A DNA stretch of 64,000 bases from Anoxybacter fermentans (GTDB lineage Bacteria; Bacillota; Halanaerobiia; DY22613). Location: positions 2,666,001 through 2,730,000 of the forward strand of contig NZ_CP016379.1 in the NCBI RefSeq assembly GCF_003991135.1, in the 5' to 3' direction. The notes beneath the pieces are model-generated. The model was not told the origin of the DNA. It made no database searches and saw only the letters and a program-made list of their open reading frames with translations. How positions within the stretch are numbered: the stretch's first letter is position 1; every line of letters begins with the position of its first letter. Positions 13,125 through 51,148 of the stretch are shown piece by piece. The translations under genes and the position numbers were made by a program.

Positions 13125-14027
13125 TCAGGCCCTTTCCAGCTCAAGAATGCTCAAATATTTTTTCATAAACTTTTCACTCGGTAATGCTATCGCTTTTTGT
13201 ATCTCCTCTATGCCATATTTCCTATTAATTGCATCAAATATAGCAAAACCTAGTCGATGTGTAAGTCTTGATCTTCCAAATCCTCTTTCTAAAAACTCAT
13301 AAATACTATGTACTTTATTATGTTTTAAATCATCAACTAAAGATCTATATTCATTAAGCAACTTAAATATCATATCCTTATTACTCGATAAAAGATAGTC
13401 TTCTTGTATTGGGGTGCCACTATTAGGAAGTCTATTCTTTATCCTAAATTCTTCAGCAGCAAAAACTCCAGTTCCTTCATAATGTATGTAGTAATCTAAA
13501 AATTCCTTCATACTATAAAATGAGCCAATCTCGTTAAGCCCTCTTATTGGCCCGTGATATTTTTCATACATAACATGAGCTGTTTCATGAATAGTAGTAG
13601 AAATTAATTCTTTAAAGTTATTTAGGAATATTTCAGTATTCACGTTAATACAAACAGCCTTGTTTATTCCAATCCCGATATCATAGCCAATCACAGGATA
13701 AATAGTTATATCTTTAAACTCTGTTTTGGGAAACAAACATCTAATACTCTCTTGAACTTCTTTTAACCATTTCCCTTCTTTCTTTTTCATTAAATTAATA
13801 AGATTAAGTATCGCACCTCTGTTTTTGAAAAAATCCTTAAAACCAAATATTTCTTCACTCTTTTTATTGATTACTTTCTCTAACTTATGTAGACTAAAAT
13901 CATTCTCGAACTTATTTGCATGAGCAGAAATTATCTTAAACGCAGTATTATGCTGAATGTCTTTAATAGCAGCTTGACCACTCAATATTTTAAAGAATTC
14001 TTCTATGTATGAATAATTAACTCTCAT
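13125..14027 (-). CDS. HExxH metallopeptidase-like cassette protein, copy 2
   Basis: A 300-residue protein about 95% identical to the product of 4288-5190, with the same TIHETAHVMYEKYHG zinc motif and HYEGTG. Differences are scattered and mostly conservative, with some clustering around residues 165-205 (for example Ile-Gly-Ser in place of Ile-Asp-Ser and Glu-Glu for Lys-Lys). Both copies are open, so both have probably been under selection or the duplication is recent. Its cassette has a complete attC-like site upstream (14057-14241) but only half a site downstream. It sits between the two-component operon and the efflux operon and is oriented with its neighbours. Confidence 0.75.
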   Translation of the reverse strand: MRVNYSYIEEFFKILSGQAAIKDIQHNTAFKIISAHANKFENDFSLHKLEKVINKKSEEIFGFKDFFKNRGAILNLINLMKKKEGKWLKEVQESIRCLFPKTEFKDITIYPVIGYDIGIGINKAVCINVNTEIFLNNFKELISTTIHETAHVMYEKYHGPIRGLNEIGSFYSMKEFLDYYIHYEGTGVFAAEEFRIKNRLPNSGTPIQEDYLLSSNKDMIFKLLNEYRSLVDDLKHNKVHSIYEFLERGFGRSRLTHRLGFAIFDAINRKYGIEEIQKAIALPSEKFMKKYLSILELERA

Positions 14028-21467: not shown

Positions 21468-22538
21468 TTAATTCTTATCCTGTTCACTCAATTTTCTTTC
21501 TATTATTTTTCGGAGTTCAATTACTTCTTTATCACTTGAATCATATTGCTTCAACCAATTTAAAGCATTCTCATAATCACCTAGTTTATAATATGCCATA
21601 GCCATCAGATACCCATCAATCTCATCATAATATATACACTCTAGCAGAGTCTCTATTGTTTTCTCATACTCCCCTAAAATATAGTATAAATGTGCCAGAC
21701 CATTATAATTTTCAGCTCTATTATCATATCTAATTGCATTCTTATAACTAATTTCTGCTTTTTTATATAATCCCTTTCGCTTATAAATCTCTCCTAAATC
21801 TCGATACGACAGAGAAAGAGTATCATCTTTTTCTAAAGCCTTTTCATGAACAATCATTGCAGTATCAATATTTCCAGAAAATGCATAAAGTAAATTACCA
21901 ATACGCGATAAAACTTCACCAGTTGCATTTTCCAATGGAATTAATTTCTTAAGTTCTTCAAATGAAATGACTGATAAGTCATATTTATCAGAATAAAATA
22001 AGCAGAGTTGTATATAATTAGAAGCTTCATTGGGATCTGATTTAATTCCCTTTTTATAGATTTCCACCCTTCTTTCTCCTTCATAACAAAGAGCTAAACT
22101 GGCATATGCTTTACCATACGTGGGATCTATATCTATAACATTCTCAAAATATAATTTGGCTTGCTCTTTATTATTTTCCTTTAATGCCATTTTACCCAAA
22201 TAATAGTAAGCATTTGCTACACCAGGTAATTTTTCATTTCCATGATATTTGATCAATTGCTCAAAGTATTTCCTTGCCTCATCATATTTTCCCTTATACT
22301 CCAACCAAAAACCTAAGTCATGAAGAGCTTCATAACTATCCGGCTTATATTTAACAGCTTTTTTTAGATTACGTATTACACCAGAAATATTCATGGCCAT
22401 AAGTGACTTATGCGCTCTTTCAACGTACTTTTTATATTGTTCCTCTGGATTTAAAGTTAAACGATATCCGATATAAATTAATATTATTAACAACAGTATT
22501 ATTATTATTATTTTCTTATATTTCTTTATAACTTTCAT
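21468..22538 (-). CDS. Membrane-anchored TPR protein
   Basis: 356 residues. A single N-terminal helix (about 8-27, IIIIILLLIILIYIGYRL) is followed by seven or more tetratricopeptide repeats, such as YYYLGKMALKENNKEQAKLYF and LSYRDLGEIYKRKGLYKKAE. The family recurs at 22613, 24479, 26914 (broken), 49838, 57221 and more distantly 59213, and elsewhere directly follows Rhs genes with beta-rich CTs. That suggests a partner or immunity role, acting on the outer face of the inner membrane. Here the Rhs CT is missing and another TPR gene lies upstream. TPRs mediate protein binding; no enzyme motif is seen. Confidence 0.8.
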   Translation of the reverse strand: MKVIKKYKKIIIIILLLIILIYIGYRLTLNPEEQYKKYVERAHKSLMAMNISGVIRNLKKAVKYKPDSYEALHDLGFWLEYKGKYDEARKYFEQLIKYHGNEKLPGVANAYYYLGKMALKENNKEQAKLYFENVIDIDPTYGKAYASLALCYEGERRVEIYKKGIKSDPNEASNYIQLCLFYSDKYDLSVISFEELKKLIPLENATGEVLSRIGNLLYAFSGNIDTAMIVHEKALEKDDTLSLSYRDLGEIYKRKGLYKKAEISYKNAIRYDNRAENYNGLAHLYYILGEYEKTIETLLECIYYDEIDGYLMAMAYYKLGDYENALNWLKQYDSSDKEVIELRKIIERKLSEQDKN

Positions 22539-22612: not shown

Positions 22613-23704
22613 TCATTCTTCTTGTTCTTTTATCTTTTGTTGTAATCTTTTGCGAAACTCAACTATATCATCATTATCTGCATCACACCGTTTTAACCAA
22701 TATAAAGCATTTTCATAATCCCCCAATTTATAGTAAGCCCTGGCTAATAAATAAATTCCCTCATTATTTGAGTCAAAATCTTCATAATAAATACACTCAC
22801 GAAGTGTTTCCACTGTTTCCTTATATTTCCCAAGTTTATAATATAATCTGGCAAGATTAATAAAGTTTAAAACTTCCTGGTCATACTCAATAGCTTGCTT
22901 ATAACTTTTTTCGGCCTTTTCATATAACCCTTTTTCTTCATAAATACTTCCCAATTCTCGATGTGACATCTCAAGAGTTTCATTTTTTTCTAATGCTTTT
23001 TCATGGATAATCATCGCAACATCCTTATTCGAGTACTCATAAAAAATATGACCAATTTTTGATAAAACCAGACTATTTGCCCCTTCCAGTGGAATTAAAT
23101 CCTGAAGCTCTTCAAAGGAAATCGTTGATAAATCATATCCATTATCTTTATAATAAGTTAGCAAACCTATATAATTCTCAACATCCCATGAGGCATTTTC
23201 AATTCCTTTTCTATATATCTCAATTTTCGTCTCACCTTCATGACATAAAGCCAAACCAGCATATGCTTCCCCATATTCTGGTTCAATCTCTATAGCTTTC
23301 TCAAAATATTTAATTGCTTTAGTTTTATTGTTTTCTTTTACTGCTATCATACCTAAATAATAATAGGTTTCCGCTATACCCCGTGTCTTTAAATGACCAT
23401 GATATTGAAGTATTTGTTGAAAATATTTCCTGGCGCCCTCATAATCTCCGTACTGATATAATAAATGTGCTAATGCTGAAGTACTGTTGTAATCATCTGG
23501 TTTAGAGGAAACAGTCTTTTTTAATGCACTGATAAAAGCTGAATAATCACGTCTTTGCAAAGAATAATAAGCTTCTTCCACATGCTCTTGATACTCTTCT
23601 TTTGGTATTTCTGATTTAAAAGTCAATCGATAGCTTATAAAAATAATGTAAAATATTATAAATAATATCAAGAATATTATTTTATATTCTCTTATAAATC
23701 TCAT
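22613..23704 (-). CDS. Membrane-anchored TPR protein, divergent paralogue
   Basis: About 363 residues from the ATG at 23704 (MRFIREYKIIFLILFIIF), which follows AGGAGGGGTAAG; the frame is open to 23731. N-terminal helix about 8-27, then TPR units with the family signature SFEELQDLIPLEGANS. It is more diverged from the 21468 gene than the other array paralogues are, so it probably pairs with a different CT that is not preserved. A palindromic element lies 60 bases upstream and Rhs-like debris beyond that. Confidence 0.8.
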   Translation of the reverse strand: MRFIREYKIIFLILFIIFYIIFISYRLTFKSEIPKEEYQEHVEEAYYSLQRRDYSAFISALKKTVSSKPDDYNSTSALAHLLYQYGDYEGARKYFQQILQYHGHLKTRGIAETYYYLGMIAVKENNKTKAIKYFEKAIEIEPEYGEAYAGLALCHEGETKIEIYRKGIENASWDVENYIGLLTYYKDNGYDLSTISFEELQDLIPLEGANSLVLSKIGHIFYEYSNKDVAMIIHEKALEKNETLEMSHRELGSIYEEKGLYEKAEKSYKQAIEYDQEVLNFINLARLYYKLGKYKETVETLRECIYYEDFDSNNEGIYLLARAYYKLGDYENALYWLKRCDADNDDIVEFRKRLQQKIKEQEE

Positions 23705-23760
23705 CTTACCCCTCCTATTATTTCCAGTCATTAATTCCTCTCCTCAAATTTTCAATACAT

Positions 23761-24478: not shown

Positions 24479-25543
24479 TTAATTCTTATTTTGTTCACTC
24501 AATTTTCCTTCTATTATTTTTCGGAGTTCAATTACTTCTTCATCACTTGAATCATATTGCTTCAGCCAATATAAAGCATTCTCATAATCACCTAGTTTAT
24601 AATATGCCATAGTCATCAGATACCTATCAATCTTATCATAATATATACACTCTAGCAAAGTCTCTATTGTTTTCTCATACTCCCCTAAAATATAGTATAA
24701 ATGTGCCAGACCATTATAATTTTCAGCTCTATTATCATATCTAATTGCATTCTTATAACTAATTTCTGCCTTTTTATATAATCCCTTTCGCTTATAAATA
24801 CCTCCTAAATCTCCATACGATAAAGAAAGAGTATCATCTTTTTCTAAAGCCTTTTCATGAACAATCATTGCAGTATCAATATTTCCAGAAAATGCATAAA
24901 GTAAATTACCAATACGCGATAAAACTTCACCAGTTGCATTTTCCAATGGAATTAATTTCTTAAGTTCTTCAAATGAAATGACTGATAAGTCATATTTATC
25001 AGAATAAAATAAGCAGAGTTGTATATAATTAGAAGCTTCATTGGGATCTGATTTGATTCCCTTTTTATAGATTTCCACCCTTTTTTCTCCTTCATAACAA
25101 AGAGCTAAACTGGCATATGCTTTACCATACGTAGGATCTATATCTATAACCTTCTCAAAATATAATTTGGCTCGTTCTTTATTATCTTCCTTTAATGCCA
25201 TTTTACCCAAATAATAGTAAGCATTTGCTACACCAGGTAATTTTTCATTTCCATGATATTTGATCAATTGCTCAAAGTATTTCCTTGCCTCATCATATTT
25301 TCCCTTATACTCCAACCAAAAACCTAAGTCATGAAGAGCTTCATAACTATCCGGCTTATATTTAACAGCTTCTTTTAGATTACGTATTACACCAGAAATA
25401 TTCATGGCCATAAGTGACTTATGAGCTTTTTCAACATACCTTTCATATCGTTCCTCTGGATTTAAAGTTAAACGATACCCAATATAAATTAATATTATTA
25501 ACAACAGTATTATCATTTTCTTATACTTCCATATAAATTTCAT
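24479..25543 (-). CDS. Membrane-anchored TPR protein paired with a beta-rich Rhs CT
   Basis: 354 residues, very similar to the 21468 product. N-terminal helix MIILLLIILIYIGYRL, then TPR repeats. The ATG at 25543 follows AAAGGAGGAGATAAAAG and lies 15 bases after the Rhs CT stop (25559), so the two are expressed together. The same order, CT then TPR, is seen at 50924/49838 and 58304/57221. I infer a CT-specific partner, most likely immunity, anchored in the membrane with its TPR superhelix outside the cytoplasm. Confidence 0.82.
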   Translation of the reverse strand: MKFIWKYKKMIILLLIILIYIGYRLTLNPEERYERYVEKAHKSLMAMNISGVIRNLKEAVKYKPDSYEALHDLGFWLEYKGKYDEARKYFEQLIKYHGNEKLPGVANAYYYLGKMALKEDNKERAKLYFEKVIDIDPTYGKAYASLALCYEGEKRVEIYKKGIKSDPNEASNYIQLCLFYSDKYDLSVISFEELKKLIPLENATGEVLSRIGNLLYAFSGNIDTAMIVHEKALEKDDTLSLSYGDLGGIYKRKGLYKKAEISYKNAIRYDNRAENYNGLAHLYYILGEYEKTIETLLECIYYDKIDRYLMTMAYYKLGDYENALYWLKQYDSSDEEVIELRKIIEGKLSEQNKN

Positions 25544-25558: not shown

Positions 25559-26716
25559 TTAATACGTACCATATACAGGTTCTAATCTCCCACTAACAGG
25601 TCCTCTTATTCCAGGAACCACGGCTCCTTGAGGTACCGTTTGACTATTAACTCCTTGTAATAGTGGTTGACCAAAAAATTCACTTCCTTCTTGTAATGGA
25701 TACCCAATGACTTCACCTTGCGATGATCCTACTGGAATAAAACCACTATCTACTTGACTTGCCATGGCGTTTACTGAAATTTCTTGAATATATTTTAATT
25801 TATCTGCTGCATCTCTTCTCAAATAAACTTTTGCAGTTTTATTAGCTTTAACACCACCTATTTCTATTGTTATACTCGACTCTCCAAATAAAACCCATTC
25901 ATCCTCAGGGCTTAGAACTGGTACATATGCTGTATTTTCTACAATTACTCCAACATCCCCAACTTTCTTTTTTGCTTGTTGCTTAACACCGATTACTTTT
26001 TCTTTATTTTTAAATACAATAGTTTGAGAAATAGCACTAGTATTTTTTAATCCTGGTATATTAAGTTCTATATTTCCATCATTATCTAATTTTATATATT
26101 TATTTTGATATGCAATTGTAACACTTTCATCAACATTTTTTTGTATTTCTACATTAGGATTTTTTCCAGAAGAATATGAATAAGATGATTCATACTCAAC
26201 TTTGGCCCAAGAAAATATGGTTTCTTTTTCATATTTACTTACTTTATACGATTGGCTATCGTAATCGTGAATTCTTGAATCAATAACTTGTTCATCTTTT
26301 AATCCTACATTAATTTCTGGAATTAAATCTAACTCTGAATTATTTACATATTTCACTTTATTCTGATCTTCTTTTGACTCTAGATTCAACTTCATCCTCA
26401 TTGCTTCTAAAGTCTCCTGGCCAACAATACCATCTACTGTAACTCCTAATTCAGCCTGGACTTCCTCTACTGCCATCTTAGTCTCCTGACCATATATGCC
26501 ATCTACTTTGACATCCTTTCCAAACCCCTCATTAAGTATCGTCTGAATTTCTTTTACCTCTTCTCCCTGAGATCCAAAGCCATATATCTTTCCACTTTCA
26601 TTAATCAGTTCATCTAAATCATCCAACATATCCCGTATTCCTGCTTCTGGATCTTCAGGAATTCCTACTACTGGCTCTATCGGATCTGTAACAGAAACGT
26701 CGATATCATACCCCAA
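25559..26716 (-). CDS. Orphan Rhs C-terminal module: peptidoglycan-binding domain plus beta-rich CT
   Basis: About 385 codons are open, but no proper start exists: the first usable codon is the TTG of the core-end motif DPLG, and a TAG precedes QNPLRFEDPLG. Residues 1-35 are the Rhs-to-CT linker (VTDPIEPVVGIPEDPEAG). Residues 45-110 form a PG_binding_1 domain (FGSQGEEVKEIQTILNEGFG, KVDGIYGQET). The rest is a beta-rich domain (about 130-310) with a Pro/Gly/Gln-rich tail. The same CT occurs at 50924-54043 and 58304-58760. The domain is unrecognised. Degenerate core sequence continues to about 26860. It probably serves only as a recombination donor for a full-length Rhs. Confidence 0.75.
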   Translation of the reverse strand: MGYDIDVSVTDPIEPVVGIPEDPEAGIRDMLDDLDELINESGKIYGFGSQGEEVKEIQTILNEGFGKDVKVDGIYGQETKMAVEEVQAELGVTVDGIVGQETLEAMRMKLNLESKEDQNKVKYVNNSELDLIPEINVGLKDEQVIDSRIHDYDSQSYKVSKYEKETIFSWAKVEYESSYSYSSGKNPNVEIQKNVDESVTIAYQNKYIKLDNDGNIELNIPGLKNTSAISQTIVFKNKEKVIGVKQQAKKKVGDVGVIVENTAYVPVLSPEDEWVLFGESSITIEIGGVKANKTAKVYLRRDAADKLKYIQEISVNAMASQVDSGFIPVGSSQGEVIGYPLQEGSEFFGQPLLQGVNSQTVPQGAVVPGIRGPVSGRLEPVYGTY

Positions 26717-26913: not shown

Positions 26914-27600
26914 TTAATTCTTATCCTGTTCACTCAATTTTCTTTCTATTATTTTTCGGAGTTCATTTGCTTCTTCATCACTTGAATCATATTGCTTCAA
27001 CCAATTTAAAGCATTCTCATAATCACCTAGTTTATAATATGCCATAGCCATCAGATACCCATCAATCTCATCATAATATATACACTCTAGCAGAGTCTCT
27101 ATTGTTTTCTCATACTCCCCTAAAATATAGTATAAATGTGCCAGACCATTATAATTTTCAGCTCTATTATCATATCTAATTGCATTCTTATAACTAATTT
27201 CTGCCTTTTTATATAATCCCTTTCGCTTATAAATCTCTCCTAAATCTCGATACGACAGAGAAAGAGTATCATCTTTTTCTAAAGCCTTTTCATGAACAAT
27301 CATTGCAGTATCTTCATTATTAACAAATGCATACAAAAAATTACCAATCCGAGCTAATACTTCTCCGGTTGCATTTTCTAAAGGGATTAATTTCTGAAGC
27401 TCTTCATAAGAAATAGTTGATAAATCATAATTATTTTGTTCATACCAATGTAGAAGATCTAGATAATTCTCGACCTCCCCTGGATCATTTTTAATTCCTT
27501 TTTTATAAATTTCAACCACTTTTTCCCCTTCATAACCGATAGCTAAACCTGAATATGCTTTACCGTATGTTGGATCTACCTCAAAAAATTGAATCATGAA
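26914..27600 (-). pseudogene. TPR protein truncated by IS3 sequence
   Basis: The last ~225 residues of a TPR protein are open, from VDPTYGKAYSGLAIGYEGEK to the common C-terminus KIIERKLSEQDKN. The N-terminal helix and first repeats (about 135 residues) are missing and replaced by IS3 right-end sequence at 27620-27715. The preserved part matches the 57221 paralogue in its first half (YEQNNYDLSTISYEELQKLI) and the 21468 paralogue in its second half, so it is also a mosaic. Confidence 0.75.
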
Positions 27601-27619
27601 AGAGCTCGAGTATAGGAAA

Positions 27620-27715
27620 TATGTCTCCTTCATCTAAATTTTATGAAGCATTAATGAGTAATTCTGTGAAAGTTAAATCTTTCATTGCATAATCCCCAAT
27701 ATTAGGAACCAGCCC
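27620..27715 (+). mobile_element. IS3 right-end fragment
   Basis: TCATCTAAATTTTATGAAGC then GTGAAAGTTAAATCTTTCAT matches 2645-2723, the OrfB C-terminus and IS end. It truncates the TPR gene on its left. Confidence 0.65.
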
Positions 27716-27746: not shown

Positions 27747-28367
27747 TTAGCGAAGATCAATAATTGCTCGCAATGAATAACTTTTACCTGTCCTTTCAAA
27801 AACTGCCCATGAACCAATTGGTAAACCACTTATAATTTCAGATTCTGTTAAAACTAGTTCTTTATCTCCCAAAAGATAAATTCTTGGACTAGAATCATTT
27901 TCATTCTCACCAGAACGAATTTTTCGACAAATATCAATAATCTGAGAAGTTGTAAGATCATCATTCTGAAAATTAAACTGAATGTTTTTTAAAGTTATTA
28001 TAGGAATTTTATTGTTTTTATTTTCAATAGTACCTTGAAAAAGTTTACTAAGATCAACGGGAACTTCTCCTTCTATTGGAAATTTTAGATTTGATGGAAT
28101 CGAATCAATGGAGTAGTAACGCCAAATATTTCTGCCTCGTGTTCCAAAACCCCCACTCACAAAATTTCGAATTATATCTATTCCAGAAGTACTTACTAAC
28201 TGTTTAAAAGTTTTAGAATCAGAATTTTTTAGAGACTCCGAAAAGAGATAAATAATATTGCTTATTTCATCCGTTACATTTCCTATTACTATACATGAAG
28301 AAAGTATCAGTACAAAAACAATAGAAACAATAATTAACAACTCTTTCTTCACTCTCTTTAACTTCAT
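27747..28367 (-). CDS. Putative lipoprotein (candidate immunity protein)
   Basis: 206 residues. The lipoprotein signal MKLKRVKKELLIIVSIVFVL then ILSSC has a lipobox with Cys25. The ATG at 28367 follows GAGGAGGTATTTTAA. The signal is nearly identical to that of the 29805 lipoprotein, but the mature parts are unrelated. The mature domain (SNIIYLFSESLKNSDSKTF ... GSWAVFERTGKSYSLRAIID) has an alpha then beta character resembling small exported stress or immunity proteins, with no family recognised. A remnant that may be the tail of its CT partner lies upstream at 28504-28625. IS3 pieces flank both sides. Confidence 0.65.
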   Translation of the reverse strand: MKLKRVKKELLIIVSIVFVLILSSCIVIGNVTDEISNIIYLFSESLKNSDSKTFKQLVSTSGIDIIRNFVSGGFGTRGRNIWRYYSIDSIPSNLKFPIEGEVPVDLSKLFQGTIENKNNKIPIITLKNIQFNFQNDDLTTSQIIDICRKIRSGENENDSSPRIYLLGDKELVLTESEIISGLPIGSWAVFERTGKSYSLRAIIDLR

Positions 28368-29804: not shown

Positions 29805-30098
29805 TTATTTTTTTATTTTATTTAAAAATGAATTTTTAACCATAGTTCTATCTTCTTTAGATAAAATATTTCCTTCTAAAAATTGAAGCATTATTTTACC
29901 TTCAATACCATTTATTATTTCGTCTACTTTTTCTTTAAATCCTTTCCAACCACTATAATGCTCAATAAATTTTATATAACGCTTACCCACACCTCCATCT
30001 CTATAATATTTTTCTATTACTATACATGAAGAAAGTATCAGCACAAAAACGATAGATATAATAACCAACAACTCTTTTTTCACTCTCTTCAACTTCAT
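29805..30098 (-). CDS. Small lipoprotein paired with the GH73 Rhs CT
   Basis: 97 residues. The signal MKLKRVKKELLVIISIVFVL then ILSSC has a lipobox with Cys25. The mature domain is short and charged (GGVGKRYIKFIEHYSGWKGF ... KNSFLNKIKK) and predicted helical. The ATG at 30098 is only 13 bases after the stop of the GH73 Rhs gene (30112), with AAGAAGGTATTTTAA between. Position, size and surface location fit an immunity protein that blocks a wall hydrolase outside the inner membrane. No known inhibitor family is recognised. The signal is shared with 27747-28367. Confidence 0.7.
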   Translation of the reverse strand: MKLKRVKKELLVIISIVFVLILSSCIVIEKYYRDGGVGKRYIKFIEHYSGWKGFKEKVDEIINGIEGKIMLQFLEGNILSKEDRTMVKNSFLNKIKK

Positions 30099-30111: not shown

Positions 30112-33105
30112 TTATTTTAATCCCCATGATTTTATAACACTAATTAATTTATCAGCATAATCTGAATCTGTAGCATATCCAGCTTCCTGTAAACCTTTTG
30201 CCCATTCTTTAGGGTCATTACTTTCAAAAAGTGATTCATATCTGGAATTTCTCACCAAAAACATACTATGATCATTAATTGATTCTCCAAAATTATTGTA
30301 AGCTCTAAATTTGTCTTTGACTTTAACTTTAATACCCCTTTCTTCTTCATGTGTCCAAATTATAACAGAACCAGCGGTTCCCTCTCCTTTTATCCCAAAT
30401 AAATTATAACTATATTGATCATTATCCATATCTATTGGTACAGCTCGCCCATAATTAGATTCCAAAATAGCTTGGGCAGTAGTAACTGCAGCAGGAACAC
30501 CAGTATTTTCTTCATCCAATATAGCATAATAATATACAGCATTTACAAAATCAGCTTTACTTGATTTAGATGAAATTTCAAATTCAACCCCTTTCTGATA
30601 AGCATCTTTAGCCAGATCACGAATCGTCAAATTCGAACCTACTGTTCGCTTCATCGCTGATATAGTAGTATCATTAAATTCTCCACTTGGTTCAATCCCT
30701 ATCATTTTTTGAAATGCTTTGATAGCTCCTTTACTCTTAGGTCCAACTTTTCCATCGACACCATTCCGATTAGGACCAGAAGTTCCTATTGGAAATCCCA
30801 TTAGTGAAAGATAAGCCTGAGCTTCAATAACTCTTGGATCTCCTTGAACTCCTTTTATGACATCTGTTATATTCACTCCTGTATTCCTTTTTGGCTCTAA
30901 ACCTAATTTTTCTTTTATCGCTCCCAATGTTTCAGACCCAAAAATACCATCCACAGTTACTGCCAATTCAGTCTGCACTTCCTTTACAGCAGCCTCTGTC
31001 TTTTGACCATATATACCATCTACAGAAAGGGTGTATCCAAATCCTTGATTTAGAACAGTTTGAAGATCTTTAACATCCTCTCCTCTATCTCCTTTACGAA
31101 GAATTTTACCTTCTAAATTATTCAACATCTTATCAAACTCTTCGTCTAAATATGAAGGCTCTGGATTTTGTGGAATCGGTGCTTGGGGATCTAGAAAGTT
31201 TTCATTGGCCAATGGCACATCATACCCCAATGGATCTTCAAATCTTACTGGATTCTGATATGCATACATATATCCATGTAGGGTTCGGGGATCACTTAAA
31301 CGACCCCTGTAACGATCTCTCTGAATCCATTGACCTGTCACTGGATCATAATCTCTTGCTTTGAAGTGATACAATTTTACCTTCGTATCATAAAACTTCT
31401 CTGTTAATCCATGATGATTGTATGGCTCCATCACTCCTGCATAAACTTCTCCAAAAGCACCATACCTGTACTTAAATAGACTGTTACCTGATCTATCAGT
31501 TATATCCATCACATTCCTGTTTACATCATGATGGTAGAAAAACAGAAATCCTCTTGTATTGGGCTGATAACCCTTAAGTTTCCTATCATGATAACCATAC
31601 ATCTTCCTGGCAATAATATTGCCATTACCGGAAAAATATTCTGCTAATGGTTGAATGCCTCCACCATGCTGATCATATTCTGCCAAAAGTCTATTACCAT
31701 CATATACATACACCGTCTTCTCCCATCTCAATTGATTCGATGTATGCCAGTAACTCTCCTCTCTTTTTACTCTCCTCCCTAAAGCATCATAGCCATACCT
31801 GACCTCTGTTCCATCATCAAACAATACCTGACTCAATCTATTTGCATAATCATACTTGTAAGTAACTGTTCCTTCAGGAGAAATCTTCTGTATCCGATTC
31901 CCTAACCTGTCATAAATATATCTCACATCCCCTGCCTGAATCAACTGATTTGCTGCATTATATTGATACAATGTCTCTACCCCATCCTGATTCTTTCTTA
32001 TCATATTTCCTACTGCATCATATTCATAAGTCACTACATTAAATGGCAATGCCAGATAATCAAAATTTTCTGCCGGGTCTGGTTGATTATCATTATCCTT
32101 CTGATTTTTACCCTTACCTTTTTCTTTCTCATTTCCACCTATAGGTTGAGTTATCAACTGAACGTCCCTGATCGCTGTAATCTTCTCTACAGGATAAATT
32201 ACTTTTGTTAATCGATAATTTGCATCATATCTGTATAAAGTCACTGCCCCATCCTCTTCTGTACATTTTAAGATATTCCCTACTAAATCCCTTTCATAAG
32301 TAAAACTTGAAAGAACTCCATATGGGCCATGGGTAACTATGCTTTTTATCTGGTTCATTTCATCATAACTGTACTCTGTCACTACTCCATTGGAATATTT
32401 CATACGTGTCAAATTGTTGTTTGCATCATACTCATATTCTGCATAATGATTCGTCGGTAGATTGGCCTTGACTAATCTGTTCAAAGCATCATACTCATAG
32501 GAAATTACTGAACCTTTTGGTGTTGTCAATGTCTTTAAATTCCCTACAGCATCATAACTGTACTGAATCTCTGTTCCCAACGTCTCATTTCTGGCCTTTA
32601 CCTTCCGCCCTAACTTATCATAACTGAATGTCTGTACAAATTCTGGACTTTCAGCTCGAATTATACGACCCAATGGATCATATTCAAATTTCTCTTTCTC
32701 TCCTGTCTGATATTCAATTTGAATTAGCCTATCCAGCGGGTCATAAGTGTAACTCGTCCTTCTACCCTCTGCATCAATCTTAAAAGCCAAATTACCTACC
32801 GGGTCATAGCCATATCTTGTCTCATTCCCCAATAGGTCTATCTCCAGAATCAATCGATCAAGAGCATCATATTGATACTCTTTTGTATAACCATTGGCAT
32901 CTACAATCCTGGTCAGCATTCCCTCTGGATCATATTGATATACCGTAGTATATCCCATTGCATCGATTACTTCTATGAGTTTATTTAGAGAGTTATAGCT
33001 CATCATTCTCACATTCTCCATTGGGTCAATGATTTTTACCAGATTTCCTATCTTATCATACTCATATTCATACTCCCCACCATTGGCCTCAATTATCTTT
33101 GTCAA
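30112..33105 (-). CDS. Rhs protein, 3' part: YD repeats, core, two peptidoglycan-binding domains, GH73 glucosaminidase CT
   Basis: 997 residues are open, and the frame extends on to about 33236. YD repeats (about 1-600) include a charged insert (GNEKEKGKGKNQKDNDNQ). The core follows (YDGNRLLAEYDQHGGG, DPVTGQWIQRDRYRG, YQNPVRFEDPLGYD), then one PG_binding_1 domain (about 670-730) and a second (about 750-815). The C-terminal ~150 residues match GH73 (TTAQAILESNYGRAVPID with the catalytic Glu, NLFGIKGEG, FRAYNNFGESINDHSMFL, LQEAGYATDSDYADKLI). It would cleave peptidoglycan glycan strands. A 37-bp deletion at about 33252 separates it from the next segment (33237-34301), so the gene is broken. The partner lipoprotein follows at 30098. 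Confidence 0.85.
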   Translation of the reverse strand: MTKIIEANGGEYEYEYDKIGNLVKIIDPMENVRMMSYNSLNKLIEVIDAMGYTTVYQYDPEGMLTRIVDANGYTKEYQYDALDRLILEIDLLGNETRYGYDPVGNLAFKIDAEGRRTSYTYDPLDRLIQIEYQTGEKEKFEYDPLGRIIRAESPEFVQTFSYDKLGRKVKARNETLGTEIQYSYDAVGNLKTLTTPKGSVISYEYDALNRLVKANLPTNHYAEYEYDANNNLTRMKYSNGVVTEYSYDEMNQIKSIVTHGPYGVLSSFTYERDLVGNILKCTEEDGAVTLYRYDANYRLTKVIYPVEKITAIRDVQLITQPIGGNEKEKGKGKNQKDNDNQPDPAENFDYLALPFNVVTYEYDAVGNMIRKNQDGVETLYQYNAANQLIQAGDVRYIYDRLGNRIQKISPEGTVTYKYDYANRLSQVLFDDGTEVRYGYDALGRRVKREESYWHTSNQLRWEKTVYVYDGNRLLAEYDQHGGGIQPLAEYFSGNGNIIARKMYGYHDRKLKGYQPNTRGFLFFYHHDVNRNVMDITDRSGNSLFKYRYGAFGEVYAGVMEPYNHHGLTEKFYDTKVKLYHFKARDYDPVTGQWIQRDRYRGRLSDPRTLHGYMYAYQNPVRFEDPLGYDVPLANENFLDPQAPIPQNPEPSYLDEEFDKMLNNLEGKILRKGDRGEDVKDLQTVLNQGFGYTLSVDGIYGQKTEAAVKEVQTELAVTVDGIFGSETLGAIKEKLGLEPKRNTGVNITDVIKGVQGDPRVIEAQAYLSLMGFPIGTSGPNRNGVDGKVGPKSKGAIKAFQKMIGIEPSGEFNDTTISAMKRTVGSNLTIRDLAKDAYQKGVEFEISSKSSKADFVNAVYYYAILDEENTGVPAAVTTAQAILESNYGRAVPIDMDNDQYSYNLFGIKGEGTAGSVIIWTHEEERGIKVKVKDKFRAYNNFGESINDHSMFLVRNSRYESLFESNDPKEWAKGLQEAGYATDSDYADKLISVIKSWGLK

Positions 33106-34386: not shown

Positions 34387-35523
34387 CTAATATTTTACTA
34401 TATAAAGCTTAACCTTCGATGGTTCATCACTCAAATTCTCTTTCCCACGTAAAAATATATATTCATCCCGTCCATCATTATCAAGATCCTCATTAACAAG
34501 ATTCCAAATTTCATAATCACTACTATTATCAAATTCTTCTATCCATGGTTTATAAACAAATTGCCCATTCTCCCAGAATATAGAGTATCCATTACTTAAG
34601 ATTATTTTTGGAAAAGAATTTGATTGCACAAATACCCCTCTCAAAATTCCATTATCATCAGGAAGTTTAATACGGAATTTCTCCTTACCCGAATCTACAC
34701 CATAAACTATGTAGGTATGCACAAAATCATCCCAAATTTCTTTTATAGTCTCTAATTCATTATCATCATTTAAATTTAATGTTCCAATAGACTCTGTATC
34801 AAGATATTTTAGTACCTCCTCAGGTGGTATTAAAAAAACAATTTCATCATTAACAATCTGTAATTCTTTCCACTTATCTTCACCAACTCTTACATAAATA
34901 TTTGAATTATCTACAACAACAAATTGTGATTCAAGAAACTCTCCATACGAACTTTTCATTTCCCACTTCTTAATTATCTGCCCATTTTTATATCCAAGTA
35001 TAAATAAATAATCTTCCATTATATTACCAACCTGTATAAGCAAATTATGTTCATCTAATTTAATTGTATCACAAACAACACCCGAAACTTCTTCACTCCA
35101 TATTTTTTCTATCCTCTTTTTCTCTAAAAATATTTTATAAACATAAATTTCACTATTCTCTACATCTTCTGTTCTTATAACAAATATTTCATCTTTTCCA
35201 TCTCCATCAAAATCACAAAATACTGAAGAACATCCAGGATATTCTCCCTTCCACTCCGGCATATCTATCCAGTCAATTTCTATTGGCTCTATACCTCCAA
35301 AAGTTATTTTGTGGAGTTTTAAATTAAAACTGTCTGGCAATAAATCGTCAGGAGATTTAGAAATATTTACTGTCAATAAAAGTTTAATATCTCCATAAGT
35401 ACCTACTGCAAAACCATTAACCGGACTTGCCCAGAATGGTTCTGAATATAATTGCATTGCATATATAGACGGTGTAGATAAGAAAACTATCATAATCAAG
35501 ATAATACTCACTTTCACATTCAC
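34387..35523 (-). CDS. Exported FG-GAP/VCBS-like protein (partner of GH23 Rhs CT)
   Basis: 378 residues from the GTG at 35523 (VNVKVSIILIMIVFLSTPSI), which follows AAGAGGAGG; the frame is open to 35601 but overlaps the Rhs gene. A signal peptide ends at IYA. CDFDGDGKDEIFVI (about 103-116) and EDLDNDGRDEYIFL (near the C-terminus) are calcium-binding FG-GAP/VCBS-type loops, suggesting a beta-propeller-like fold. The gene starts 16 bases after the Rhs stop. Close paralogues follow the other GH23-bearing Rhs genes (40310, 54169, and the 43900/62514 subfamily), so a dedicated partner or periplasmic immunity role is inferred. Confidence 0.8.
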   Translation of the reverse strand: MNVKVSIILIMIVFLSTPSIYAMQLYSEPFWASPVNGFAVGTYGDIKLLLTVNISKSPDDLLPDSFNLKLHKITFGGIEPIEIDWIDMPEWKGEYPGCSSVFCDFDGDGKDEIFVIRTEDVENSEIYVYKIFLEKKRIEKIWSEEVSGVVCDTIKLDEHNLLIQVGNIMEDYLFILGYKNGQIIKKWEMKSSYGEFLESQFVVVDNSNIYVRVGEDKWKELQIVNDEIVFLIPPEEVLKYLDTESIGTLNLNDDNELETIKEIWDDFVHTYIVYGVDSGKEKFRIKLPDDNGILRGVFVQSNSFPKIILSNGYSIFWENGQFVYKPWIEEFDNSSDYEIWNLVNEDLDNDGRDEYIFLRGKENLSDEPSKVKLYIVKY

Positions 35524-35539
35524 CTTTCCAAACCTCCTC

Positions 35540-37213
35540 TTAAAATAATTTATTCTTTTCATAAGGCGGTTGTGGATCAGTACCATATTTATATGCCTCA
35601 AAAACTCTTTCTACATAATCCCAGGCTCTTTCCCCTGTTCCATTATATGCTAATACCGGTCCAAACCACTCTGTTCCATATTTCTTAACGCCCTCTTTAA
35701 TTTTCTTTTCATTTCTTTTATACCATTTATACCCTGGACTCTTTTTTTTCTTTTTTCTAAACACATCTTTGCACCAACCAACATGTTCAACCTTCTTATA
35801 TAACCATCTAATTCCACCAGCTATATTTTGATTTACATCTGACCAGTCTTTAACGTTTACTAGTAATATTTTTAGATTCCGTAATTCATCTATAGACCTG
35901 CCTTCTTCTAATTGCATCAAACCTCTTCCTGGCCCACCATCCTCCTTAAGATTCGGGACAAAATTACGATTTTCACGTGCAATCAATGCCTTAACCAAAC
36001 TTGGATCCAATGGTTCAATTTCATAGCTAGACTTCTCATTCCATCTATCATTAAAGTAATTTGTCCAGGCAACTATTTCACGGTCAAACCTATTAAGTTC
36101 TTCATCCTTATATTTTTGAATATTAGTATTCTCACCATATATACTGACATAACTAATCGCCATCTGTAAATCCTGGTCAGAAACACTATCTGGATCTTCT
36201 ATATATTTATCCATTGTCTTATAGTGGTATTCAATGTCAAAATATTTTTCAAATTCTTGCATATTTTCTTCCTGCTTCTGTCTATCAATTTTTATCACAG
36301 GTATGTCTAATCCATCTTTAATACCTGCAGCTGTATTAAATCCAATATCATTATTTATTCCCCTTATTTGCAATTCCGGATTCAACATGCTATCCACTTC
36401 TTCTACTGCTTTTTTCATCGCTTCTAAAGTCTCCTGGCCAACAATACCAACTACTGTAACTCCTAACTCAGCCTGGACTTCCTCTACTGCCATTTTAGTC
36501 TCCTGACCATATATGCCATCTACTTTGACATCCTTTCCAAACCCCTCATTAAGTATCGTCTGAATTTCTTTTACCTCTTCTCCCTGAGATCCAAATCCAT
36601 ATATCTTTCCACTTTCATTAATCAGTTCACCTAAATCATCCAACATATCCCGTATTCCTGCTTCTGGATCTTCAGGAATTCCTACTACTGGCTCTATCGG
36701 ATCTGTAACAGAAACGTCGATATCATACCCCAATGGATCTTCAAATCTTACCGGATTCTGATATGCATACATATATCCATGTAGGGTTCGTGGATCGCTT
36801 AAACGACCTCTGTAACGATCTCTCTGAATCCACTGACCTATCACTGGATCATAATCTCTTGCTTTGAAGTGATACAATTTTACCTTTGTATCATAAAACT
36901 TCTCTGTCAATCCATGATGATTGTATGGCTCCATCACTCCTGCATAAACTTCTCCAAAAGCATCATACCTGTACTTAAATAGACTGTTACCTGATCTATC
37001 AGTTATATCCATCACATTCCTGTTTACATCATGATGGTAAAAGAATAAAAACCCTCTTGTATTGGGCTGATAACCCTTAAGTTTCCTATCATGATAACCA
37101 TACATCTTCCTGGCAATAATATTGCCATTACCGGTAAAATATTCTGCTAATGGTTGAATACCTCCACCATGCTGATCATATTCTGCCAAAAAGTCTATTA
37201 CCATCATATACAT
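35540..37213 (-). CDS. Rhs C-terminal module: core end, peptidoglycan-binding domain, GH23 transglycosylase-like CT
   Basis: 557 residues. Core-end motifs (LAEYDQHGGG to FEDPLGYD) occupy about 1-165 and PG_binding_1 about 205-275. After a helical linker, the CT has DPSLVKALIARENRNF with a catalytic-type Glu, GPGRGLMQLE, NIAGGIRWL and VLAYNGTGERAWDY, a GH23/SLT-like pattern. It should cleave peptidoglycan glycan strands. Upstream, an extra A (five As near 37190 instead of four) shifts the frame against the remaining core, which runs to about 37395, so no start is preserved. The same shift occurs at 43174. The FG-GAP partner follows 16 bases on. Confidence 0.8.
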   Translation of the reverse strand: MYMMVIDFLAEYDQHGGGIQPLAEYFTGNGNIIARKMYGYHDRKLKGYQPNTRGFLFFYHHDVNRNVMDITDRSGNSLFKYRYDAFGEVYAGVMEPYNHHGLTEKFYDTKVKLYHFKARDYDPVIGQWIQRDRYRGRLSDPRTLHGYMYAYQNPVRFEDPLGYDIDVSVTDPIEPVVGIPEDPEAGIRDMLDDLGELINESGKIYGFGSQGEEVKEIQTILNEGFGKDVKVDGIYGQETKMAVEEVQAELGVTVVGIVGQETLEAMKKAVEEVDSMLNPELQIRGINNDIGFNTAAGIKDGLDIPVIKIDRQKQEENMQEFEKYFDIEYHYKTMDKYIEDPDSVSDQDLQMAISYVSIYGENTNIQKYKDEELNRFDREIVAWTNYFNDRWNEKSSYEIEPLDPSLVKALIARENRNFVPNLKEDGGPGRGLMQLEEGRSIDELRNLKILLVNVKDWSDVNQNIAGGIRWLYKKVEHVGWCKDVFRKKKKKSPGYKWYKRNEKKIKEGVKKYGTEWFGPVLAYNGTGERAWDYVERVFEAYKYGTDPQPPYEKNKLF

Positions 37214-37439: not shown

Positions 37440-37580
37440 GGGTCTCTCCTTCAATATCAAATGAAAGAGAGACCCACTGATAATTAATTCTTATCCTGTT
37501 CACTCAATTTTCTCTCTATTACTCTTTGGAGTTCAATTAATTCTTCATTACTTGAATCATATTGCTTCAACTAATATAAA
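37440..37580 (-). pseudogene. Hairpin and last codons of a lost TPR gene
   Basis: The GGGTCTCTC hairpin (37440-37473) follows a 28-residue tail, QYDSSNEELIELQRVIERKL then SEQDKN and a stop at 37484. The rest of the TPR gene is gone and replaced by a palindromic element at 37581. Confidence 0.7.
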
Positions 37581-37803
37581 GGCTAAACTGCAAAAAGCTA
37601 ATTTTTCGCTCCTTGAGAAATTTTTCGAACCATCTAAAGCTCGATTTCCGCCGAAATAAGGCTTCCTAATCAAAGGGCCCTCCTGGCCCTTGATTAGCTC
37701 ATCACTTCCTGTGATGAGGCTTTATTTCGACTGAAATCTCACTAAGATGGTTTAACGAAAAATTTCTATGGCGCTCAAAATTAGCTTTTTGCAGTTTAAT
37801 CAT
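37581..37803. repeat. Palindromic MITE-like element, full copy
   Basis: Both terminal repeats, both hairpins (GGGCCCTCCTGGCCC and CATCACTTCCTGTGATG) and full arms are present. Opposite orientation to 12806-13031. Confidence 0.82.
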
Positions 37804-40309: not shown

Positions 40310-41446
40310 CTAATATTTTACCATCCAAATCTTAATGTTATATGGTTCATTACTCTGATTCTTTCTTCTACGTAAAAATATATATTCATCCCTTCCATCA
40401 TCATCAAGATCAGCATTTACAAGATTCCAAATCTTAAAATCACCACTATTATCAAATTCTTCTATCCATGGTTTATAAACAAATTGTCCATTCTCCCAGA
40501 ATATAGAGTATCCATTACTTAAGATTATTTTTGGAAAAGAATCTGATTGCACAAATACTCCTCTCAAAATTCCATTATCATCAGGAAGTTTAATACGGAA
40601 TTTCTCTCTACCAGAATCTATACCATAAATTATATAGGTACGTACCCGTCTATCCCATATTTGTTTTATAGTCTCTAATTCATTATCACCATTTAAATTT
40701 AATGTTCCAATAGACTTTGTATCAAGATATTTTAGTACCTCCTCAGGTGGTGTTAAAAAAACAATTTCATCATTGATAATCTGTAGTTTTTTCCACTTAT
40801 TTTCACCAACTCTTACATAAATATTTGAATTATCTACAACAACAAATTGTGATTCAAGATACTCTCCATACGAACTTTTCATTTCCCACTTCTTAATTAT
40901 CTGTCCATCTTTATATCCAAGTATAAATAAATAATCTTCCATTATATTACCAACCTGTATAAGCAAATTATGTTCATCTAATTTAATTTTACCACAAACA
41001 TCACCCGGAACTTCTTCACTCCATATTTTTTCTATCCTTTTTTCCTCTAAAAATATTTTATAAACATAAATTTCACTATTCTCTACATCTTCTGTTCTTA
41101 TAACAAATATTTCATCTTTTTCATCTCCATCAAAATCACAAAATACTGAAGAACATCCAGAATATTCTCCCTTCCACTTCGGCATATCTATCCAATCAAT
41201 TTCTATTGGTTCTATACCTCCAAAAGTTATTTTGTAGAGCTTTAAATTAAAACTATCTGGCAATAAATCGTCAGAAGATTTAGAAATATTTACTGTCAAT
41301 AAAAGTTTAATGTCTCCATAAGTACCTATTGCAAAACCATGAACCGAATTTGCCCAGAATGGTTCCGAATATAATTGCATTGCATATATTGACGGGACAA
41401 ATATAAAAACCATCACAATCAAGATAATACTTACTTTTACATTCAC
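40310..41446 (-). CDS. Exported FG-GAP/VCBS-like protein (partner of GH23 Rhs CT)
   Basis: 378 residues, about 90% like the 34387 product. The GTG start at 41446 follows GGGGAGGTATTGAAAA. The signal peptide ends at SIYA. FG-GAP-type loops are CDFDGDEKDEIFVI (about 103-116) and ADLDDDGRDEYIFL. The gene starts 16 bases after the Rhs stop at 41463. An IS1182 element lies immediately downstream (to 40301) and has replaced the terminator. I infer that it binds or neutralises the GH23 CT in the periplasm. Confidence 0.8.
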   Translation of the reverse strand: MNVKVSIILIVMVFIFVPSIYAMQLYSEPFWANSVHGFAIGTYGDIKLLLTVNISKSSDDLLPDSFNLKLYKITFGGIEPIEIDWIDMPKWKGEYSGCSSVFCDFDGDEKDEIFVIRTEDVENSEIYVYKIFLEEKRIEKIWSEEVPGDVCGKIKLDEHNLLIQVGNIMEDYLFILGYKDGQIIKKWEMKSSYGEYLESQFVVVDNSNIYVRVGENKWKKLQIINDEIVFLTPPEEVLKYLDTKSIGTLNLNGDNELETIKQIWDRRVRTYIIYGIDSGREKFRIKLPDDNGILRGVFVQSDSFPKIILSNGYSIFWENGQFVYKPWIEEFDNSGDFKIWNLVNADLDDDGRDEYIFLRRRKNQSNEPYNIKIWMVKY

Positions 41447-41462: not shown

Positions 41463-43199
41463 TTAAAACAATTTATTCTTTTCATAAGGCGGTTGTGGGT
41501 CAGTACCATATTTATATGCTTCAAAAACTCTTTCTGCATAATCCCAGGCTCTTTCCCCTGTTCCATTATATGCTAATACCGGTCCAAACCACTCTGTTCC
41601 ATATTTTTTAATCCCCTCTTCAATTTTTTCTACATTATTTTTATACCATTCATATCCTGGATTACCTTCTAGCTCTTGATCATATTTACTTTTACACCAA
41701 CTAACATGACCAACCTTCTCATATAACCATCTAATTCCACCAGCTATATTCTGATTTACATCTGACCAGTCTTTAACGTTTACTAGTAATATTTTTAGAT
41801 TCCGTAATTCATCTATAGACCTACCTTTTCCTACTTCTAATTGCATCAAACCTCTTCCTGGCCCATTATACTCCTCAAGATTCGGAACAAAATTACGATT
41901 TTCACGTGCAATTAATGCCTTAACCAGACTTGGATCTAATGGTTCTATTTTATATTTAGATTTCTTATTCCATCTATCATTAAAATAATTTGTCCAGGCA
42001 ATTATTTCACGGTCAAATCTATTAAGTTCTTCATCCTTATATTTTTGAATATTGGTATTCTCACCATATATACTGACATAAATAATCGCCATCTGTAAAT
42101 CTTGGTCAGAAACACTATCTGGATCTTCTATATATTTATCCATTGTCTTATAGTGGTATTCAATGTCAAAATATTTTTCAAATTCTTGCATATTTTCTTC
42201 CTGCTTCTGTCTATCAATTTTTATCACAGGTATGTCTAATCCATCTTTAATACCTGCAGCTGTAGTAAATCCAATATCATTATTTATTCTCTTTATTTGT
42301 AATTCCGGATTCAACATGCTATCCACTTCTTCTACTGCTTTTTCAACTTCTTTATCGATAATTTCTAAAGTTTCCTCTTGTTTTGAATTCAACTTTATCC
42401 TCATTGTTTCTAAAGTCTCCTGGCCAACAATACCAACTACTGTAACTCCTAACTCAGCCTGGACTTCCTCTACTGCCATCTTAGTCTCCTGACCATATAT
42501 GCCATCTACTTTGACATCCTTTCCAAACCCTTCATTAAGTATCGTCTGAATTTCTTTTACCTCTTCTCCCTGAGATCCAAAGCCATATATCTTTCCACTT
42601 TCATTAATCAGTTCATCTAAATCATCCAACATATCCCGTATTCCTGCTTCTGGATCTTCAGGAATTCCTACTACTGGCTCTATCGGATCTGTAACAGAAA
42701 CGTCGATATCATACCCCAATGGATCTTCAAATCTCACAGGATTCTGATATACATACATATATCCATGTAGGGTTCGGGGGTCACTTAAACGACCCCTGTA
42801 ACGATCTCTCTGAATCCATTGACCTGTCACTGGATCATAGTCTCTTGCTTTGAAATGATACAATTTTACCTTTGTATCATAAAACTTCTCTGTCAATCCA
42901 TGATGATTGTATGGCTCCATCACCCCTGCATAAACTTCCCCAAAAGCATCATACCTGTACTTAAATAGACTGTTGCCTGATCTATCAGTTATATCCATCA
43001 CATTCCTGTTTACATCATGATGGAAGAAGAATAAAAACCCTCTTGTATTAGGCTGATAACCATTAAGTTTCCTATCATGATAACCATACATCTTCCTGGC
43101 AATAATATTGCCATTACCGGAAAAATATTCTGCTAATGGCTGAATACCTCCACCATGCTGATCATATTCTGCCAAAAAGTCTATTACCATCATATACAT
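41463..43199 (-). CDS. Rhs C-terminal module: core end, peptidoglycan-binding domain, GH23 transglycosylase-like CT
   Basis: 578 residues. Core end about 1-165, PG_binding_1 about 205-275, a helical region with SVSDQDLQMAIIYVSIYG, then GH23-like residues about 420-565 (IARENRNF with Glu433, GPGRGLMQLE, NQNIAGGIRWL, AYNGTGERAWDYAER). It ends in YEKNKLF. The upstream core to 43318 is in another frame because of an extra A near 43174, identical to the shift near 37190. At 43318 the core is cut and followed by a terminator hairpin and palindromic element. A silent donor module is the likeliest status. Confidence 0.8.
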   Translation of the reverse strand: MYMMVIDFLAEYDQHGGGIQPLAEYFSGNGNIIARKMYGYHDRKLNGYQPNTRGFLFFFHHDVNRNVMDITDRSGNSLFKYRYDAFGEVYAGVMEPYNHHGLTEKFYDTKVKLYHFKARDYDPVTGQWIQRDRYRGRLSDPRTLHGYMYVYQNPVRFEDPLGYDIDVSVTDPIEPVVGIPEDPEAGIRDMLDDLDELINESGKIYGFGSQGEEVKEIQTILNEGFGKDVKVDGIYGQETKMAVEEVQAELGVTVVGIVGQETLETMRIKLNSKQEETLEIIDKEVEKAVEEVDSMLNPELQIKRINNDIGFTTAAGIKDGLDIPVIKIDRQKQEENMQEFEKYFDIEYHYKTMDKYIEDPDSVSDQDLQMAIIYVSIYGENTNIQKYKDEELNRFDREIIAWTNYFNDRWNKKSKYKIEPLDPSLVKALIARENRNFVPNLEEYNGPGRGLMQLEVGKGRSIDELRNLKILLVNVKDWSDVNQNIAGGIRWLYEKVGHVSWCKSKYDQELEGNPGYEWYKNNVEKIEEGIKKYGTEWFGPVLAYNGTGERAWDYAERVFEAYKYGTDPQPPYEKNKLF

Positions 43200-43899: not shown

Positions 43900-45063
43900 T
43901 CAATATTTAATCATCCAAAATTCAACCTTATAAACTTCATCACTTAAATTCGTATTTTCGCGTAAAAACATTGTTTCTAACAATCCATCATTATCAATAT
44001 CTTCATTTACAAAATCATGTATAAAAACATCATCAGTATAACTCAAACTCAATTCTTCTATCCATGGTTTATAAACATATCTCCCTTCTTCCCAAAATAT
44101 TGCATAACCATTGGTCAATAGGATTCTTGGCTCAACTCCGCATTTAGAGGAAATATATCCACCAATTTCATTCCAAAAAGAAAGTTTTATACGGAATTTC
44201 TCACGCCCTGATTTAATGCCATATATTAAATAAATATGCTCCAAACCATCTTCCACTTTTTTTACCGTCTCCAGTTCTTCATCATCATCTAGATTTACTA
44301 ATCCGATAAATTCATACCTATTTAATTCTTCAAATATTTCCGGATCAATTAATAATTCCTTTGAAGATTCTGGAAAAGCAATCTCATTATTGACTATTTG
44401 CATGTGCTTCCATTCACCATATTTTGTTTCTACATAAATTTTTCTTTCATCAACTATCATAAATCTTTTGTGTAAAAAATCTCTAATATCATCTTCATAC
44501 ATTAACTCCCATTTCTTTTTTATACCACCTTCATCATATCCAAAAACATACATATACGAATCACTTACATTTTCTACCTGAACCAGCAAATTATGATTGT
44601 CTAATTTAATCGCATCCAACACACGACCTGGAATGTCTTCATTCCATATCAAATTTGCTTTTCCTTTCTCCAACTGAATTTTATAAATATATATTTCTCC
44701 TAAAAATAAATCTTCAAAATTCCTTACAATAAATAATTCATCACTTCCATCTTGATCGAAATCACAAAACCTAGCTAAAATATAACCGTCAAACTCTGGT
44801 ATAGAACTCCAATCAATCTCTATTTTTTTTATATTTTGAAAACTTAATTCATAAAGATTAAAAGTATATCCATCAGGTGATAAATCATCAGGAAATTTAG
44901 AAAGTCCTACCGTAAACAATAGTTTTCTATCCTCGTAATTTCCAACTGCAAAACTACTGTCTGAATTTGTCCAAAATAATTCATAATATGATTGTAAAGC
45001 ATTCACCGGTACTGTAACTATAACCAACAGTGCAAGAAAAAAGATAATTACTTTAAATTTCAT
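43900..45063 (-). CDS. Exported FG-GAP/VCBS-like protein, second subfamily
   Basis: 387 residues from the ATG at 45063 (MKFKVIIFFLALLVIVTVPV then NALQ), behind GAGGAGGTTTTACAA; the frame is open to 45114. A signal peptide is clear. FG-GAP-type loops are CDFDQDGSDELFIV and EDIDNDGLLETMFL. It is near-identical to 62514-63677 but only distantly related to the 34387/40310/54169 set. It follows the ISL3-disrupted Rhs gene, whose CT end (SGEKAFNYAKR, YSENALF) also differs from the other GH23 CTs, so CT and partner have diverged together. Rhs stop and start are 520 bases apart, unlike the 16 elsewhere. Confidence 0.8.
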   Translation of the reverse strand: MKFKVIIFFLALLVIVTVPVNALQSYYELFWTNSDSSFAVGNYEDRKLLFTVGLSKFPDDLSPDGYTFNLYELSFQNIKKIEIDWSSIPEFDGYILARFCDFDQDGSDELFIVRNFEDLFLGEIYIYKIQLEKGKANLIWNEDIPGRVLDAIKLDNHNLLVQVENVSDSYMYVFGYDEGGIKKKWELMYEDDIRDFLHKRFMIVDERKIYVETKYGEWKHMQIVNNEIAFPESSKELLIDPEIFEELNRYEFIGLVNLDDDEELETVKKVEDGLEHIYLIYGIKSGREKFRIKLSFWNEIGGYISSKCGVEPRILLTNGYAIFWEEGRYVYKPWIEELSLSYTDDVFIHDFVNEDIDNDGLLETMFLRENTNLSDEVYKVEFWMIKY

Positions 45064-45584
45064 TTGTAAAACCTCCTCGCATATAATTAAGCAAAGTTTT
45101 ATAACTGAAAACATTGTAAATTAAAAATTTCTTCCTTCTAAAGTTTTTTAAATTGTTGTCAAGGTAGTTTTAAAACCAATTCTTTCTAAAATCGGATTTA
45201 TCTTACAGAATCCTTTATAGAAATTAGTCATAATTCTTTTTCTCCTTATTCTTCTTTTTCAGATATCTTCCAACTAAAAATATATTTTCTTTCATAACAG
45301 ATAATTCTAATCTCTGTTTATTTCTGTGAACCTAATTCTAACAAAACTGTTAAATATATTAAATTTTCTTAATAAATTCCTTTCTGAATAAAGCTAAATT
45401 TATTACTTTAAAACATCCTATCAATAGAAACATTGGTAGTGATTGACATGAATTTCTCTATATCCTGGCTAAAACCAACATCCTGTCAATCACTACCAAT
45501 TTAATTTTTTATTATTAATTAAATCAATTCACCCCCTTCATTAATCTTTCTATATAATCCATAAATTACTTATTGCTTACATCA
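45064..45584. other. Intergenic region with a perfect 17-bp inverted repeat
   Basis: ATTGGTAGTGATTGACA (45432-45448) and TGTCAATCACTACCAAT (45484-45500) are exact complements, followed on the plus strand by TTAATTTTTTATT. It may be a terminator facing right or the end of a mobile element. The part 45064-45390 is duplicated at 63678-64000. No convincing gene is seen. Confidence 0.6.
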
Positions 45585-51145: not shown

Positions 51146-51148
51146 CTC

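Follow-up and report, generated by a model that had tools for sequence, protein, structure and literature searches.

An array of displaced RHS modules

The stretch of DNA analyzed here (the window) comprises 64,000 nt of the single-contig, 3.56-Mb genome of Anoxybacter fermentans. Its right-hand end adjoins a full-length RHS gene lying outside the window (L005:7135-16191), which encodes 3018 aa with 59 RHS repeats. Downstream of this gene, displaced C-terminal modules are lined up in tandem on the minus strand. Each comprises a stretch of RHS core, in most cases the PG_binding_1 linker, then a variable tip with its partner gene. The core blocks share 94-98% DNA identity with the main RHS gene, the longest spanning 3086 nt. 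The tips comprise five SLT-like modules (four inside the window and one just outside), one glucosaminidase, three copies of a beta-rich C-terminal (CT) domain, a further tip termed CT D, and the main gene's own. Past rearrangements are marked by transposase genes and partner-gene remnants, such as the 3' ends of TPR genes found at 48963-49103 and 37487-37582. The window holds, in array form, the swappable tips that a giant bacterial surface protein of the RHS type has discarded. Its glucosaminidase and SLT-like modules are:

30112-33105, minus strand: RHS core, two PG_binding_1 domains and a Glucosaminidase tip (E 1.2e-31)
30015-30098 (remnant) and 27747-28367 (full copy): lipoprotein-like partner of the glucosaminidase, downstream of it
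35540-37213, minus strand: SLT-like module; FG-GAP-like partner at 34387-35601
41463-43199, minus strand: SLT-like module (SLT 19.8 bits, slightly below the cut-off); FG-GAP-like partner at 40310-41446
47120-48979, minus strand: SLT-like module interrupted by a transposase gene (45865-47067); FG-GAP-like partner at 43900-45114
55169-57077, minus strand: SLT-like module whose frame is broken, giving two ORFs; FG-GAP-like partner at 54169-55152

The current tip of the full-length RHS gene (L005:7138-7839, 234 aa) has no Pfam match, and its partner (L005:6639-7118), a membrane-anchored protein of 159 aa, belongs to no known family. A secretin gene is located directly upstream of the RHS locus (L005:17184-18515) and represents a possible export route. 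Two near-identical 300-aa ORFs with a HETAH metallopeptidase-like motif lie about 8.8 kb apart in the window (4288-5190 and 13125-14027).

The beta-rich CT domain and its copies

The three copies of the beta-rich CT domain, together with their adjoining sequences and CT D, are located as follows:

25559-26377, minus strand: copy A, complete including the Gly/Pro/Gln tail; C-terminal part of ORF 25559-26716, which has no RHS core
26381-26716, minus strand: conserved linker with PG_binding_1 (Pfam stretch about 26399-26569), which shares about 97% DNA identity with its counterparts in other modules
51149-51616, minus strand: copy B, stopped by an in-frame TAG; C-terminal part of ORF 51149-54043, which starts inside RHS core
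50924-51148, minus strand: frame of copy B beyond the TAG, a Pro-rich tail finishing just before the TPR gene
58304-58759, minus strand: copy C, C-terminal half only, without PG_binding_1, core or SGKN block
60306-60974, minus strand: CT D, sharing about 84 N-terminal aa with copy A and then differing; ORF 60306-61817

An earlier, sequence-only reading had placed one domain, behind PG_binding_1, at the three positions. Homologous stretches are indeed present at all of them: copies A and B are about 44% identical and copies A and C 87% identical over the length of C, the local alignment of A and B scores 303 as opposed to 42 +/- 7 for shuffled sequences, and a genome search recovers both other stretches (E 1e-36 and 2e-84), both inside the window. 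However, only copy A is complete, B being truncated and C reduced to a half. The minus-strand ORF of copy A (385 aa) contains PG_binding_1 at residues 50-106 (Pfam E 1.9e-13) followed by about 270 aa, whereas copy B is preceded by a truncated PG_binding_1 that fails the Pfam cut-off (E 0.0083) and copy C by none. The RHS core ahead of the domain amounts to 2.2 kb at 98% identity in copy B and to the linker plus a short, diverged core remnant in copy A, and is absent from copy C. In copy B, the TAG at 51149-51151 ends the ORF ahead of the tail. The CT domain is real, though intact in one of three copies; all three copies are broken or detached, and none now belongs to a deliverable protein.

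With regard to its internal features, the SGKN.NVE block is confined to copies A and B, since C lacks it, and the Gly/Pro/Gln-rich tail is near-identical in A and C, whereas the sequence of B past the TAG is Pro-rich but different. The proposed strand-like segments are weakly echoed by the AlphaFold2 models (three sequences), both of which are all-beta meanders with mean pLDDT values of only 33.8 and 49.5. The C-terminal half of copy B is modeled as a four-strand meander at a block pLDDT of 61-71. A fold search with the better model returned no match, a result which is uninformative at such model confidence.

The supposition that the domain carries no known motif was borne out, as the approximately 270 aa produced no match standing out from noise in Pfam, NCBIfam, PHROG, PADLOC or PDB sequences, and thus none to a toxin domain catalogued in these collections. 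No hydrolase domain was matched in copies A or B, whereas the neighboring tips do match. A clear match to a known structural, non-toxic domain, set beforehand as the outcome speaking against an effector, was looked for and not found. Furthermore, relatives were absent from protein and profile searches across 398 genomes of the phylum and 59-61 relatives, and none was recovered by tblastn on plasmids and phages. Motif scans of genome contigs with two motif sets, and of viral contigs, also gave none, although these scans require a short-peptide match that distant relatives could escape. An HMM of the domain found nothing in the sister genus or in a second RHS array of the same genome. A weak match in genome G006 (E 0.045) was put down to chance. 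Among 61 genomes, both the beta-rich CT domain and the TPR family described below are limited to this locus.

CT D was ruled out as a full-length homologue of copy A past the N-terminal 84 aa or so, and weak matches to CT D in four genomes were treated as chance. It ends in a Gly/Ala-rich hydrophobic stretch (GAAALGAAVAITAYAVGNDIV...), a composition with which CT D is a possible pore-former.

TPR partner genes, tip-partner matching and export

Each beta-rich CT copy is followed directly downstream by its own TPR gene (3/3), and further TPR genes are present in the window:

24479-25543, minus strand: TPR partner of copy A, probable immunity gene (TPR_12, E 8.9e-19; several TPR models above the Pfam cut-off; hydrophobic segment from residue 10)
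49838-50905, minus strand: TPR partner of copy B, 62% identical to the gene at 24479
57221-58288, minus strand: TPR partner of copy C, 78% identical to the gene at 24479
21468-22538, minus strand: same-family TPR gene lacking a CT, 94% identical to the gene at 24479
22613-23731, minus strand: same-family TPR gene lacking a CT, 54% identical
26914-27633, minus strand: 5'-truncated TPR gene upstream of copy A
59213-60364, minus strand: TPR partner of CT D, with Pfam TPR and a membrane anchor; the gene overlaps CT D

The gap between CT and TPR gene measures 15 nt for copies A and C and carries a ribosome-binding site, AAAGGAGG. The constant pairing that had been noted is therefore one-directional: every CT copy has its TPR gene, but the TPR genes at 21468 and 22613 and the truncated gene at 26914 occur without the domain. 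Five copies of the TPR family are intact, and five TPR genes encode an N-terminal anchor, as judged by hydropathy (maxima of 2.1-2.7 near the N-terminus). Pairwise Ka/Ks values of the TPR genes range from 0.25 to 0.45, except for one pair at 0.55, the closest pair after 24479/21468. In comparison, Ka/Ks is 0.98 between copies A and C of the CT domain (147 codons, few changes) and 0.58 between A and B. The TPR genes are under purifying selection and the closest beta-rich CT pair is not. This pattern suggests that the tip was formerly constrained and that recent copies are free to decay, while the partner is kept even without a tip (21468 and 22613). A decaying tip next to a kept partner is what is predicted for a toxin-immunity pair after displacement.

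Across the array, tip type matches partner type in all 11 modules. SLT-like tips are accompanied by one FG-GAP-like family and the beta-rich CT domain by one TPR family. CT D has a TPR gene of its own, the glucosaminidase has the lipoprotein-like gene and the main tip the anchored 159-aa protein. Random assignment would yield such a match with P = 1.8e-5, a figure that assumes independent modules and, because tandem duplication makes the 11 modules non-independent, serves only as a guide. Stronger support than this figure comes from the diverged second RHS array near 1.95 Mb of the same genome, where a tip related to the SLT-like one (52% identity over 133 aa) again has an FG-GAP partner, just 24% identical to one in the window. 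This second-array partner (L030:5942-7156) also matches PliI, which inhibits lysozyme in the periplasm, at a sub-threshold level (E 0.0008), and the weak match would fit an immunity role of the FG-GAP partner. The second array as a whole (L030, L031 and L032; G000:C1:1940000-1994000) has a main gene of 3265 aa, and its tips are mostly hydrophobic-looking, with small partner proteins containing several hydrophobic segments, which suggests a mostly membrane-directed arsenal.

An N-terminal hydrophobic segment, either an anchor or a signal, is present in each of the five partner types. In the sister genus, on the other hand, seven of nine RHS partners lack an anchor or signal segment; the remaining two, which are anchored, come after a lysozyme-like tip and after one with, by eye, an L,D-transpeptidase-like motif. 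In the latter tip (L035:2975-4189), this motif reads HGT...SxGC, and the gene behind it (L035:1863-2990) encodes a repeat protein with a signal. The genome also contains LpxC, so the cell should possess an outer membrane and a periplasm; PMC5007114 describes the outer membrane of Halanaerobiales. The LpxC gene (G000:C1:2530119-2530926) is divided between two frames, as overlapping pieces of 205 and 98 aa, which may reflect a frameshift or an error in sequencing. Taken together, the anchored partners, the contrast with the sister genus and LpxC point to the envelope as the site where the beta-rich CT domain would act. The linker alone is no proof of such action: a general rule that a PG_binding linker means an exported partner was ruled out by a sister-genus PG_binding module with an unanchored partner (L029:4708).

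The CT-TPR pair as a probable orphan toxin and immunity gene

We consider it roughly two-thirds probable that the beta-rich CT domain is a displaced (orphan), envelope-acting antibacterial tip and that the TPR proteins are exported immunity proteins. This reading is favored because the domain occupies the variable C-terminal RHS slot shared with glucosaminidase and SLT-like lysins, and because tip and partner types correspond one to one, the partner being exported and selectively preserved. As a tip the domain had gone unrecognized; it probably acts against bacteria, with the TPR gene most likely serving as the antidote. The analysis shows the sequence, the layout of the array, the tip-partner matching, the export signals of the partners, the selection pattern and that all three copies are broken; we infer toxicity, neutralization by the TPR protein, the periplasmic site, delivery and mechanism from this context. 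The candidate effector domain of the sequence-only reading thus gains from the locus context and from the lack of a structural-domain match, but the models are too weak to assign a fold; together with its TPR partner it forms a plausible, not a demonstrated, new toxin family.

Mechanistically, should a module be joined to the full-length RHS gene through recombination in the shared core, the joined tip would be delivered to a neighboring diderm cell. There, the PG_binding_1 linker may hold the tip at the peptidoglycan while the beta domain would damage the envelope. The TPR immunity protein would sit in the inner membrane and face the periplasm. A peptidoglycan-cleaving or -modifying enzyme of unrecognized fold, blocked by the TPR protein in the periplasm, would fit the PG_binding_1 linker ahead of the domain, the slot shared with the SLT-like and glucosaminidase lysin tips, the exported partner and the invariant acidic residues E147, D141 and E166 (alignment A4). 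We nevertheless regard an enzyme as unlikely, given that no hydrolase family was matched, that the alignment of the copies contains no invariant Cys or His and that the low-confidence models show a beta meander with no evident site. The missing Cys and His and the lack of a known hydrolase signature make a non-enzymatic action, either membrane damage or the blocking of an envelope target, slightly more likely than peptidoglycan cleavage by a new fold. As a tentative proposal, at odds well short of even, the domain would represent a new RHS toxin family, non-enzymatic and beta-structured, that attacks the envelope and is neutralized in the periplasm by membrane-anchored TPR scaffolds.

Two further explanations locate the toxic activity elsewhere or dispense with it. 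The beta region could be a carrier or pre-toxin segment whose toxic part is the variable tail (Gly/Pro/Gln-rich in A and C, Pro-rich in B, hydrophobic in D), in keeping with copy A and CT D sharing about 84 N-terminal aa and no more, and with the differing tails of A and B. Yet copies A, B and C have the entire beta region in common, which is their most conserved part, and the A and B tails, being low in complexity and, for A, modeled as disordered, are poor toxin candidates, so that this explanation seems quite improbable. TPR proteins are common and frequently serve as scaffolds or chaperones, which counts against the immunity reading. The domain might then be a non-toxic structural or adhesive end of the RHS protein with a TPR accessory aiding export or assembly, an alternative that also agrees with the tail being unlike a toxin. 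A general export helper would not vary with the tip, however, and the partner type does; in addition, the TPR family is retained where the tip is gone and known toxin-type tips fill the same slot, leaving this alternative quite doubtful as well.

The orphan-tip reading has precedents, and by analogy the layout of the array is that of orphan Rhs-CT/immunity modules. In enterobacterial rhs loci, a 95%-identical core permits recombination with the main gene, and in Salmonella a displaced rhs-CT/rhsI fragment without start and export signals becomes active after such recombination (Koskiniemi et al., 2014; PMC3967940). As in these systems, a main full-length rhs gene is followed here by core fragments with a variable CT and a linked immunity gene. 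In contrast, the present array belongs to a diderm that is not a proteobacterium and holds about 10 modules, most of which have a PG_binding_1 linker and partners of the envelope type, and its beta-rich CT domain and TPR protein were matched to no known CT/immunity family. The TPR genes at 21468 and 22613 resemble immunity genes retained without a toxin downstream of a Serratia rhs locus, for which protection was demonstrated (PMC10539506), whereas here it is deduced from the sequence. The portions of the toxin catalogue of Zhang et al. (2012; PMC3482391) considered here describe RHS carriers, Tox-Glucosaminidase tips, PG-binding domains in toxin proteins and TPR repeats in some multi-domain immunity proteins, and these portions hold neither a similar beta-rich CT domain nor a membrane-anchored TPR-only immunity family. 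Closer by, the sister genus (G001, e.g., L020/L027) has RHS core, PG_binding and a lysozyme-like tip followed by an anchored 267-aa partner, but with other tips and partners and no beta-rich CT domain. By this comparison, the CT-TPR pair would be a new addition to the known orphan rhs-CT/immunity modules.

The locus extends the RHS polymorphic toxins by a tip domain that has no known relatives and by a probable family of TPR immunity proteins, and it does so in a diderm that is not one of the usual proteobacterial models. A single array records module displacement many times over, and its decaying tips next to conserved partners make the idea that immunity genes outlive their toxins directly testable. 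If the proposed role of the TPR proteins is true, they would, together with the FG-GAP-like partners of the lysins, make exported repeat proteins a general immunity class in this lineage.
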